DNA of 36,184 nt from positions 1-36,184 of the forward strand of contig JABXGR010000006.1 in assembly GCA_013538805.1 (NCBI GenBank), in the 5' to 3' direction. The notes under the pieces were generated by a model, which did no database searches, was not told the origin of the DNA, and worked only from the letters and a program-made list of their open reading frames with translations. Both the position numbers and the translations under genes were made by a program. Below are positions 27,432 to 31,774 of this stretch, in pieces (positions within the stretch are counted from its first letter, which is position 1; each line of letters starts with the position of its first letter). Source of the stretch: Candidatus Nitrosocaldus schleperae (GTDB lineage: Archaea; Thermoproteota; Nitrososphaeria; Nitrososphaerales; Nitrosocaldaceae).

Positions 27432-28325
27432 ATGGTATCTGCATGGCTTAGAGCGATAAGGGTAAGGTTCCTTCTAGCCTCAATAATATCTGTAAGTATT
27501 GGTCTAGCCATAGCATTATGGAAGAATAGCATCATAGACCCATTCTATGCACTCCTTACATACATTGGTGTGCTAAGCCTTCATGCTAGTGTTGATCTCC
27601 TGAACGATTACTGGGACTACAGATCTGGCATAGACAAGGTTACTAGAAGGACCCCATTCTCTGGAGGGACTGGTGTGCTACCAGAGCATATGCTCTCACC
27701 ATCAAGCGTGTATAGAGCAGGTATAGCATTCCTCATCATAGGAGCATTGATAGGCTTATACTTCGTTGCAGTTAAAGGCATTGCTATTGCAATGATACTT
27801 GCATTTGCTGTAGTAGCAGTGTATCTATACTCAACAAGCATAGTAAGGATAGGCTTAGGCGAGTTCTTTGTTGCTTTAAAGGGCACCATGATAGTTATAG
27901 GCACTTACTATGTGCAGGTAGGAGCATTCAGCATCGAGCCTGTATATGCTGGCATAATATCTGGGATGCTATCATCATCAGTACTCTTCATCAACTCATT
28001 CCCAGATTATGAGGCAGATAGGAGAGGTGGTAGAAGGACCCTTGTTATACTGCTTGGTCCTGCTAGAGCATCAAGGTTATTCATAGCATTCCCAATGGCA
28101 GTATACGTTATGGTTGCTTCAGGTGTGGCATTGCATATACTGCCATTATACACCCTTGCTACTCTTCTAGCATTACCCCTTGCACTTAAAGCATACAGAA
28201 TGCTTAAGGCAAGGTATGATGATGCTGAAGGGCTTATACCTTGCATGAGTAGTACTATAGCGTTCTCAAGGATAGTTGGTGCAGTAATAGTAGGAGGGGT
28301 TCTTGTAGAATATCTATTATTCTAA
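27432..28325 (+). CDS. UbiA-superfamily prenyltransferase, MenA-like
   Basis: 297 residues, eight to nine hydrophobic helices. Both Asp-rich motifs of the superfamily are present: LLNDYWDYRSGID (N58, D59, D62, D68) and NSFPDYEADRRGGRRTL (D192, D196). The spacing and the RRTPFSGGTGVLPE loop between the first motif and helix 3 match MenA-type enzymes, which attach a polyprenyl chain to 1,4-dihydroxy-2-naphthoate during menaquinone synthesis. Thaumarchaeota use menaquinones, so this role is plausible; other UbiA members such as geranylgeranylglyceryl-phosphate synthases are less likely by motif. An integral membrane enzyme. No other men genes are adjacent. Confidence 0.82.
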   Translation: MVSAWLRAIRVRFLLASIISVSIGLAIALWKNSIIDPFYALLTYIGVLSLHASVDLLNDYWDYRSGIDKVTRRTPFSGGTGVLPEHMLSPSSVYRAGIAFLIIGALIGLYFVAVKGIAIAMILAFAVVAVYLYSTSIVRIGLGEFFVALKGTMIVIGTYYVQVGAFSIEPVYAGIISGMLSSSVLFINSFPDYEADRRGGRRTLVILLGPARASRLFIAFPMAVYVMVASGVALHILPLYTLATLLALPLALKAYRMLKARYDDAEGLIPCMSSTIAFSRIVGAVIVGGVLVEYLLF

Positions 28326-28378: not shown

Positions 28379-28717
28379 TTACCTTATAGATCTAGCAATA
28401 TCTACAAGGTCATCAACACTAAGATACCTACTCTTGAATGAGTATATCACTCTACTCTCATCATCGTAAAGGTCTAGGATATTGTAGTAGTACTTCTCCC
28501 ATATATCATAGTCTACATCGACACCCTTGTACGCTATTCCCTGCTTACCATTTATATCAACTATGATAGCATCTGCATTATTCACATCTATGTATGCATT
28601 CCAGTAACCCTCCGATGGAAGCACTCTATAAGCAGTAACCACAAGCACGCCTTTTGCTAATGCCTCCTGCATGCTAGTTGCAGGTCCAGCACTCACACCC
28701 TTGCTATAGTATATCAT
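28379..28717 (-). CDS. Probable C-terminal part of a split exported protein
   Basis: 112 residues starting MIYYSKGVSAGPATSMQEAL and ending DDLVDIARSIR. There is no ribosome-binding signal or TATA box of its own. Its frame is open upstream of the ATG (reading LQILNNYVM) and joins naturally to the end of the preceding gene, which stops 11 nt before this ATG in the other frame. The pair LPSYLPEG...V.L.YK then IYYSKG resembles a single DUF4367-like (LPEGY...YY/YS) domain common in exported archaeal proteins. I read it as the second half of one gene separated by a one-base shift. If real and separate, its function is unknown. Confidence 0.5.
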   Translation of the reverse strand: MIYYSKGVSAGPATSMQEALAKGVLVVTAYRVLPSEGYWNAYIDVNNADAIIVDINGKQGIAYKGVDVDYDIWEKYYYNILDLYDDESRVIYSFKSRYLSVDDLVDIARSIR

Positions 28718-28728
28718 AACATAATTGT

Positions 28729-29709
28729 TCAGTATTTGTAGAGCACACTTATACTCATACCCTCTGGCAGGTATGAGGGCAGTTTAAGATCAAAGTTTGC
28801 TAGTGCATAACCATGCCTAGCCTCATCTGCACTCATGCATGAATGGTATGATCTAACATTCACTATACCCTCCATATTGTAGGGCTTTACAGTGTATAAG
28901 TACTTGCTCTCCATCAATCCTGGAAATATTACAGGCCTAGAACCCTTTGGAGGTATTATTGTTACTGATGCATGCTTATATGAGAGATCTTCCATAAGAT
29001 GCTCCTCTGCATAAGCATAAAGAGTTAACTTGCTATCCAACTCGTTGATGAAGAGTAGGATGTTATTGAATGGTGCTAAGACCTCATGCTTATTACTATC
29101 AAGGGCAACTATCTTGAACCTTGCATCACTAAACTCCTTGTATGCTATCCTTACAGTAACATAACCTTGATCCTCTGGTATGCTATTATACCCATATCCA
29201 TAGCCATCATTCAGTATAAATGCAAAGGGATTTATACTGATGTGATAATACCTTCCATCATATTCTATTATGCATGAGATGTAACCATACTCATCCCTCA
29301 TCTTGTAGAGCATATCTATCTGTGGCTTATCTGCTATCGCTAAAGTTGCTTGCTTCACCATTGCTCTTATGAGTTCGTATGCCTCATCATTAGATATGGT
29401 TACTCCACTATACTCATTGTACATCCCTGCAGTATCTGCCCAGTATCTAACATTCATTATCTCATCCCTCAACGCCTTGGATATGTTAATGAGCCCCTCT
29501 GCTTCTCTAATGAGGCATTGCTCATAACCACCAAGCTTATCAAGTACTGCTACGCTAGCAGAAGCATCAACCTTGTAGAGGTCTGAGAGCGTTATACCTA
29601 TGCTCTTGTATGTTATGCTGATAAATGCTAGTAGAGATGTAAGTATTATAGCGATACCAACAATGATAGCAATTGCATAGCTCATCACTTTATCTATTAT
29701 GCCTTGCAT
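28729..29709 (-). CDS. Membrane-anchored exported protein, apparently truncated by a frameshift
   Basis: 326 residues with an N-terminal membrane anchor (about 9-33, AIAIIVGIAIILTSLLAFIS) and no cysteine lipobox, so the remainder should lie outside the membrane. The body is beta-rich with many Tyr and Asp, and includes GYVTVRIAYKEFSDARFKIV. The last residues LPSYLPEGMSISVLYKY are the opening of a LPEG-type domain that is not completed before the stop at 28729; the missing part is in the next frame at 28379-28717. The ATG at 29709 has an AT core about 22 nt upstream, shared with the divergent reductase. Family unknown. Confidence 0.6.
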   Translation of the reverse strand: MQGIIDKVMSYAIAIIVGIAIILTSLLAFISITYKSIGITLSDLYKVDASASVAVLDKLGGYEQCLIREAEGLINISKALRDEIMNVRYWADTAGMYNEYSGVTISNDEAYELIRAMVKQATLAIADKPQIDMLYKMRDEYGYISCIIEYDGRYYHISINPFAFILNDGYGYGYNSIPEDQGYVTVRIAYKEFSDARFKIVALDSNKHEVLAPFNNILLFINELDSKLTLYAYAEEHLMEDLSYKHASVTIIPPKGSRPVIFPGLMESKYLYTVKPYNMEGIVNVRSYHSCMSADEARHGYALANFDLKLPSYLPEGMSISVLYKY

Positions 29710-29766: not shown

Positions 29767-30873
29767 ATGATCAAGGGTTATGCAACAAGGGAAGGTACAT
29801 CAAGGTTTAGAGCAAGGTATGAGGGGAAGAGCACTGCTATAGGGCACTTCAAGCAGTTTGGGGAGTACATGCTTACAAGCATAGGCATGGGCACATACCT
29901 AGGCAAGGCAGATGATGCAACAGACCTGCTCATCATAAATGCTATCAAGAGATCTGTTGGAGAAGGGGTTATCAACGTTGTAGATACTGCAATAAACTAC
30001 AGGTTCCAGAAGTCTGAGCGTGCAGTAGGCAAAGCAATTAAGGAGTTGGTAGAGCAAGGAATATGCAGGAGGGATGAGGTATTCATAAGTACAAAGAATG
30101 GCTACCTTACACATGATGCTGATCTTAACATGGAGTTTTGGGAGTACATACATGCAAATCTAATAAAGGCTGGGGTTATAAGGGCTGATGATATCTCATC
30201 TGGCTACAACTGCATCAAGGTATCTTATCTTGAGGATCAGTTGAAGAGGAGCATAAAGAATCTAGGGCTGGAGTGTATAGATCTGATCTACCTTCACAAT
30301 GCTGCTGAGGAGCAACTACCAGATCTTGGCAGGGATATGTTCATGAAGATGCTCAAGGAGGCATTTGAGTTCTATGAAGCAAAGAGGAGGGAAGGGCTCA
30401 TCAGATACTATGGGATGGCTACATGGGACTGCTTTAGGGTTGATCCAAGCAGTTCTATACATATGAATATTAAGGATGTGGTTGATATGGCAAGAGGTAT
30501 TGCTGGAGAAGAGCATGGGTTCAGGTTCATACAATTACCATTCAACATTGCAATGCATGAGGCAGCAACACTCAAGAACCAGATCATAGATGGTAATATC
30601 TATACAGTTATGGAGGCTGCTACACTGCTAGGCATTAATATATTCACAAGCGTGCCATTACTTCAAGGCAGGTTACTGCATAGAGATGTTATGAGTATGG
30701 TAAAGGCAGAGACACCAGCACTTGCATGCTTACAGTTTGCAAGATCATCTAGAGCAATACCCCTAGTTGGGCAGAAGAGAATGGAGCATGTTGAGGAGAA
30801 TCTAAGGATAGCAATGATGCAACCATTGAGCAATGATGAGTTCTCAAGCATAGTTGCCTCACTGACTGGCTAG
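29767..30873 (+). CDS. Aldo/keto reductase family protein
   Basis: 368 residues with a TIM-barrel AKR pattern: LTSIGMGTYLG, then VVDTAINYRFQKSERAVGKA, STKNGYL, and IDLIYLHNAAE. The catalytic tetrad is complete: D73, Y78, K110, H177. The C-terminal RSSRAIPLVGQKRMEHVEENL matches the NADPH-binding IPG...+..+L..N segment. It reduces a carbonyl or oxidises an alcohol with NAD(P)H; the substrate is unknown. It is longer than typical AKRs because of about 35 extra N-terminal residues and an insert near 120-150. The last 4 nt overlap the convergent Lrp gene. Confidence 0.87.
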   Translation: MIKGYATREGTSRFRARYEGKSTAIGHFKQFGEYMLTSIGMGTYLGKADDATDLLIINAIKRSVGEGVINVVDTAINYRFQKSERAVGKAIKELVEQGICRRDEVFISTKNGYLTHDADLNMEFWEYIHANLIKAGVIRADDISSGYNCIKVSYLEDQLKRSIKNLGLECIDLIYLHNAAEEQLPDLGRDMFMKMLKEAFEFYEAKRREGLIRYYGMATWDCFRVDPSSSIHMNIKDVVDMARGIAGEEHGFRFIQLPFNIAMHEAATLKNQIIDGNIYTVMEAATLLGINIFTSVPLLQGRLLHRDVMSMVKAETPALACLQFARSSRAIPLVGQKRMEHVEENLRIAMMQPLSNDEFSSIVASLTG

Positions 30874-31313
30874 AGCAGCCTGAAATCTTCTTTTATTGTG
30901 TTTAGCACAACATGTGTATTGGTTCTCTCAACGTATGATAGGCTTAGAACATGCTTTGTAAAGTTACTCAACTCCTCTATGCTCTTGAACTTTGCAACTA
31001 TCATGGCATCTGTTGTGCCTGTAGTATCGTACACAGCACATACATTTGGGATCTTTGCTATCTCCCTCTCCATCTCAAGCAATCTACCTTTAGACATTGT
31101 AACCTCCATGACTATCGTTATAGTATAGCCAAGTAACCTATGCTCAAGCATTGCTGAGTAACCCTTTATTATCCCTGCTCTCTCCATATCCTTAATATGC
31201 TTGAGTACCGTGCCAGTTGATACCTGCAGGGTATCTGCCAACTGCCTGTATGATCTCCTTGCATCCCTGAGCAGTTCAGCAAGTAAGCGTTTATCGAACT
31301 CTGCAAGTTCCAT
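30870..31313 (-). CDS. Lrp/AsnC family transcriptional regulator
   Basis: 147 residues. An N-terminal winged HTH, ELAEFDKRLLAELLRDARRS, continues with YRQLADTLQVSTGTVLKHIKDMERAGIIKGY, and a RAM/ACT-type ligand-binding domain occupies about 70-147. This is the compact Lrp architecture that in archaea senses amino acids and controls metabolic genes as dimers or octamers. The frame opens with 8 more codons at 31337, but MELAEFDKRLL is the family-like start. No clear operator was identified. The target is unknown; the branched-chain operon 23 kb away is a guess only. Confidence 0.9.
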   Translation of the reverse strand: MELAEFDKRLLAELLRDARRSYRQLADTLQVSTGTVLKHIKDMERAGIIKGYSAMLEHRLLGYTITIVMEVTMSKGRLLEMEREIAKIPNVCAVYDTTGTTDAMIVAKFKSIEELSNFTKHVLSLSYVERTNTHVVLNTIKEDFRLL

Positions 31314-31435
31314 AGTAGTATTTAAGCATACATGCACTAAACCTTTGCTATACTACTGCTTTATCCTGTACATTAGAATGAATATTATCAATTTCTACGA
31401 TATAGATAAATTATCTAATATGCATACTCTCTAAC

Positions 31436-31774
31436 ATGCCTACAGAATACGATCTACCATTCAAACTATCGCTCATTGCAGGCATGATGATAATAGCAAA
31501 TGGTATCTGGACGTATATACAACTTGCATATGTTTATAGCATACCATTTTGGATACTCGAGTTCGCTAGTGTAATCTCTCTACTTGGTTATGGTATAGTT
31601 GTGATATTCAGTGCTATGAAACTGAAGGAGGATAACACTTCTGATAAGTTGCTATGGATAGCATTGATAATAGCATTCTCAATAGCAGGCTATAGCCCTT
31701 ACATAGGTACTGCTGGCACTATCCTTGGAGTGCTAGGTGGGGTTCTAGCCTTGAGACCCATGCTTAGAAGATAG
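31436..31774 (+). CDS. Small membrane protein, unknown function
   Basis: 112 residues with four predicted helices (about 9-29, 34-56, 68-83 and 87-106). The last is glycine-rich (IGTAGTILGVLGGVLALRPM), resembling the ending of short archaeal membrane proteins that finish LGGVLAL+. A TATA-like GATAAATTATC lies about 24 nt before the ATG, so leaderless. The next gene begins 28 nt downstream on the same strand and may be co-transcribed. Confidence 0.65.
   Translation: MPTEYDLPFKLSLIAGMMIIANGIWTYIQLAYVYSIPFWILEFASVISLLGYGIVVIFSAMKLKEDNTSDKLLWIALIIAFSIAGYSPYIGTAGTILGVLGGVLALRPMLRR

Follow-up and report, generated by a model that had tools for sequence, protein, structure and literature searches.

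Among archaeal genes that are distributed over two reading frames, two described cases are close enough to be compared with the locus presented here. In the chitinase of Pyrococcus furiosus (PF1234/PF1233) a gene that forms a single ORF in a relative was halved by the insertion of one nucleotide, with a stop about ten codons further on and a second ORF 37 nt away; this break was confirmed by a sequenced PCR product and by genetics (PMC3575233). The gene fucA1 of Saccharolobus solfataricus is built differently, with full-length relatives and two frames in a -1 relation that overlap by 40 bp and carry a slippery A-rich heptamer together with flanking elements (PMC8211752). It is presented there as the established cellular case of recoding in archaea, and frameshifting cases from archaeal viruses are mentioned too (PMC8037382, PMC8211752). 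In the latter review, interrupted genes of archaea are also argued to be functional in many cases; we have counted this view against the reading of a broken gene as a pseudogene, and because of it recoding was kept among the options for the locus described below (PMC8211752).

Here, we describe a split gene that shares features with both systems. Its host, Candidatus Nitrosocaldus schleperae, is an ammonia-oxidising archaeon of hot springs with a draft genome of 1.45 Mb (16 contigs, 42% G+C). The analysed stretch of 36,184 nt, hereafter called the window, comprises positions 1-36184 of a contig of 97,974 bases, and the closest named match is Ca. Nitrosocaldus tengchongensis, whose contig JACAFJ010000027.1 is 82% identical in the best segment. 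As in P. furiosus, an archaeal gene with single-ORF relatives is halved by a one-nucleotide change, the stop follows after a similar number of codons and the second ORF is near (11 nt). In contrast with the chitinase, where the insertion hit an enzyme, a base is missing here from a gene whose product has no assigned role, and the break is read from the assembled sequence. With fucA1 the locus has in common the -1 relation, the existence of full-length relatives and the size of the overlap (55 nt), but no heptamer of that kind is present in it. For plain breakage the P. furiosus chitinase offers a closer precedent. We consider it probable that the gene is an ordinary frameshift pseudogene of recent origin.

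The split gene and its parts

The features of the locus are as follows.
28729..29709, reverse strand: 5' piece, with an N-terminal transmembrane segment and about 300 residues; the nine residues past LPEG are off the ancestral frame
28759..28761, reverse strand: site of the frame change within the codons of the conserved LPEGY motif; in the DNA alignment the window has one empty column here that is filled in four relatives
28379..28717, reverse strand: 3' piece, 112 aa counted from its ATG; its frame is open from 28783
28379..28842, reverse strand: putative C-terminal domain of DUF4367-like type in the ancestral protein, spread across both frames
27432..28325, forward strand: neighbour with conserved synteny, which we take to be UbiA-prenyltransferase-like
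29767..30873, forward strand: neighbour with conserved synteny, presumably aldo/keto-reductase-like

On re-reading, the coordinates and readings of both ORFs agreed exactly with those of the preliminary description. The ORF 28729-29709 ends with ...LPSYLPEGMSISVLYKY and its stop codon occupies 28729-28731, whereas the ATG of the second ORF lies past this stop in the -1 frame. That frame had been described as open upstream of its ATG also, and it indeed remains open back to 28783, which accounts for the overlap of the two frames. The hydropathy of the 5' piece peaks at 2.9 over 19 residues in the N-terminal membrane segment; the ancestral protein would be a single-pass exported one. Since the intact relatives start at about window position 29685, some eight codons inside the listed ORF 28729-29709, the stretch ahead of that point is probably untranslated and the real start is to be sought near 29685.

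In the proposed course of events one base would have gone missing in the lineage of the window, inside the LPEGY codons. Translation would then quit the ancestral frame at the gap and stop nine codons later, and what is made would be the anchored N-terminal portion of the protein, lacking the folded C-terminal DUF4367-like domain. The pseudogene reading takes the DNA as correctly read, the protein as exported, the truncated product as devoid of a role and the loss as recent.

A separate second gene starting at 28717 was considered and rejected. Its ATG corresponds to an internal methionine (M325 in the G005 protein) that all three intact congeners have kept, and by eye no Shine-Dalgarno-like run occurs in the 25 nt upstream of it. 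Furthermore, an ORF beginning at this ATG would start at residue 44 of the domain model described below, within the second strand, and its product would be predicted to lack the first strand.

Relatives inside and outside the genus

The protein was detected in six of the 41 genomes searched, all of them from one genus and the window's own genome included. Three of the five other congeneric genomes contain it as an uninterrupted single ORF (440 aa in G005, 431 aa in G001 and 435 aa in G003), flanked in each case by the same two neighbours as in the window. Both pieces from the window align end to end with these single ORFs of 431-440 aa, and a profile of the three intact proteins recovers them as two separate matches (E 5.6e-148 and 2.3e-65); the arrangement is not fortuitous. 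Among five aligned DNA sequences the one-base gap is private to the window and is found neither in G005, G001 and G003 nor in the decayed copy of G002; the copy of G004, where this region is missing, was left out of this alignment. With a 4-nt gap ahead of the G005 start disregarded, six of the seven coding indels between the window and G005 are multiples of three and one is an exception. When the three intact genes are compared in pairs, no indel departs from multiples of three (0/9, 0/5 and 0/6).

The two remaining copies in the genus are degenerate. That of G002 contains stops, and of the indels that separate it from the intact genes 13/24 to 13/28 depart from multiples of three, the gap of the window not being among them. 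In G004 there is only a remnant that covers query residues 46-194 with 8 stops, and the space between the neighbours has shrunk to about 500 bases compared with about 1,440 in the window; this genome is 67% complete, but the locus is nonetheless interior to a 22-kb contig. The six genomes thus comprise three intact copies, two degenerate ones and the window with its single lesion. Since the copies of G002 and G004 have decayed, the gene is dispensable in some lineages and its breakage is tolerated in related species.

Profile searches over wider samples gave matches in 11 genomes out of 250 from the class (E up to 0.01) and in 17 out of 400 from the order (E up to 1e-5), the two sets of matches overlapping. 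All eight matches of the class search that lie outside the genus, distant thaumarchaeal relatives read as ORFs of 227-850 aa, are unbroken across the junction motif; in the order search the match to one of them (L024, G136:C21) is longer and has stops farther upstream. Another match (L046) is cut by a contig end and is uninformative on the boundary. Nine full-length relatives, including the three congeners, have four invariant cysteines in common (C60, C141, C284 and C315 in G005 numbering), and the frame break falls between C284 and C315.

The view taken in the preliminary description, that one domain was cut in two by the net loss of one base, is borne out by the intact ORF in three of five congeneric genomes and by the eight unbroken distant relatives. 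The alignment with full-length homologues that was proposed there has assigned both pieces to single ORFs, with a one-column gap in the DNA. Homologues encoded as two proteins with the same boundary, or a homologue of the first piece ending at LYKY, had been named as evidence to the contrary, and neither occurs among the 11 relatives.

Programmed -1 frameshifting would join both frames into the full protein, and the direction of the shift, the 55-nt overlap, the conserved frame beyond it and the precedent of fucA1 speak for such a mechanism. However, the overlap is free of any slippery heptamer of the form X XXY YYZ, and its longest homopolymer run has three bases (no run of at least four), which makes programmed frameshifting unlikely; in addition, no shift is needed in the three intact congeners or in the eight distant relatives read. 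With regard to a stimulatory stem-loop or pseudoknot 5-9 nt downstream, folding of 80 nt around the stop gave -14.1 kcal/mol, a value from one fold without shuffled control. Altogether we regard recoding as very improbable. An unconventional -1 ribosomal shift that dispenses with a slippery heptamer, or two separately made and cooperating pieces, in either case in one archaeal species only, is likewise scarcely to be expected. Most likely this is an ordinary broken gene rather than a new mechanism, and general understanding is left unchanged.

Disruption is also seen farther away, as a relative from another family of the order (L045, G138) has 10 stops inside its match.

The C-terminal domain

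The C-terminal part of the G005 protein, modelled alone from a 17-row alignment, reached a pLDDT of 90.4. The full-length model from three sequences had a pLDDT of 34.9, and therefore we make no claim on the fold of the N-terminal part. In the domain model the break is located at residue 29-30, directly before the first long strand (31-39). Since it is the domain's first motif that is hit, the 3' piece would contain almost the entire folded core, and for the 5' piece just this motif and the leading helix are predicted. Open throughout, the 3' piece is 81% identical to the G005 domain.

In a Pfam scan of 10 relatives DUF4367 (PF14285) was listed for eight, in three of them above the gathering cut-off, and among 17 domain sequences it was listed for 13 with E values of up to 10, the best being 8e-07. 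The same family was matched by neither of the two window pieces and by none of the three intact Nitrosocaldus proteins in the Pfam scan, and for the intact proteins no match above cut-off was obtained in Pfam and NCBIfam. The domain aligns with relatives that match PF14285 but, because the window pieces and their congeners miss the Pfam gathering score, we suggest the denomination DUF4367-like and would not consider it a member. The earlier impression of a DUF4367-like ending can be upheld through the relatives (3/10 above the Pfam cut-off), whereas the window's own pieces gave no match. No paper on DUF4367 was found within the literature searched.

A sequence search of solved structures returned chance-level matches only (best E 0.5). 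The best structural match of the domain model is the C-terminal domain of RseB/MucB (3m4w, Z 10.5, rmsd 2.3, 94 residues). The predicted resemblance is accompanied by an identity of only 6-13%, and other folds are close behind at Z 9.2-9.5 (BT_1490 and LpqN within about 1.3 Z units), BT_1490 being the top match in Foldseek. Archaea are not known to have a sigma/anti-sigma system.

The domain was also matched at two further loci of the same genome (contigs C15 and C1, E up to 0.01) and at other loci in each of six further genomes searched with the same threshold, some of these matches being weak (0.0026 in G002). From these matches the lineage seems to keep other members of the domain. In the genome of the window they are the DUF4367-like L067 (G000:C15:32198-32689) and G000:C1:19366-19929, which lie within frames open for 230 and 248 aa.

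Selection, sequence error and the surrounding locus

Omega was 0.67 on the window branch versus 0.28 elsewhere (2dlnL 8.1), and a value of 1 on the window branch was not rejected (2dlnL 1.6). Taken by piece, the window-branch omega amounted to 0.76 in the 5' part (2.3x background) and 0.51 in the 3' part (2.6x background). Pairwise omega between the window and G005 (NG86) was 0.57 and 0.31 for the 5' and 3' pieces, respectively, and 0.15-0.25 for the four flanking genes (27432, 29767, 30873 and 31803). All ten control genes, i.e. those left after dropping genes with any identity below 50%, likewise had a higher omega on the window branch (two of them with p below 0.05); the omega ratio of the target (2.4) compares with 2.3 for 29767-30870 and 3.4 for 30873-31337. 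Because all ten controls lean the same way, the signal for relaxed selection on the broken lineage is weak.

The N-terminal part could still be useful as a shorter exported protein from which the C-terminal domain was lost. The 5' piece is long, and it has kept the membrane segment as well as three of the four invariant cysteines. However, according to the above values it is no more constrained than the 3' piece, and among the 11 relatives read there is none that stops at the same boundary, so that we hold this variant to be quite improbable.

A small but appreciable chance is left for a sequencing or assembly error, or a minority variant caught in the consensus, in a gene that is in fact intact. 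The genome is a draft of 16 contigs, the 3' frame is fully open and still somewhat constrained (window-branch omega about 0.5 against a background of 0.2), and its high identity with the G005 domain is the outcome that an uncorrected assembly error would also give. Against an error stand the site itself, which is not a homopolymer, and the decay of the gene in two congeneric genomes, by which breakage is seen to be tolerated. Moreover, indel errors should be rare, on general knowledge, if the genome is the Illumina/SPAdes draft described in PMC7819960.

A survey of reading frames bears on the same question. With non-overlapping reference ORFs, a set that may still hold some spurious ones, 79 of 92 ORFs from 100 kb of G001 were matched in 96 kb of the window's contig. 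A clean split over two frames was found in one of these 79, the target gene alone, which argues against a generally error-ridden assembly. Twelve of the 79 were flagged, namely the target, six with a stop inside the match, two partly covered without a stop and three weaker second or tandem copies; the six stop-containing matches were not examined one by one, and the count of one clean split stands beside them. With query and target exchanged, 80 of the 99 ORFs of the window's contig were matched in G001 with 12 flagged, and after subtraction of two tandem copies four had matches in more than one frame (2-568, 22480, 31436 and 81483). This means that G001, whose genome is a single contig, is no freer of split matches. 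Among the three alternatives put forward originally, recoding is disfavoured, and a real mutation seems likelier than an assembly error.

With the pseudogene reading, a gene of an uncharacterised thaumarchaeal family of exported proteins is seen being lost within one genus. For annotation, the two pieces are not to be counted as two proteins.

Between 20188 and 32777 the closest relative switches along the window. Six genes at 20.2-27.4 kb group with G001, whereas G005 is the closest to 27432, 29767 and 31803, with dS much lower, and 30873 groups marginally with G001. This change points to recombination close to 27.4 kb or to chimaerism of the draft contig. In the same neighbourhood, 31436-31774 (forward strand) codes for a membrane protein of 112 aa that is intact in G005 and nearly intact in G003. 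The corresponding stretch of G001 contains a mere remainder of it, interrupted by a stop and by a frame change, and judged from these copies it would be a second decaying gene.
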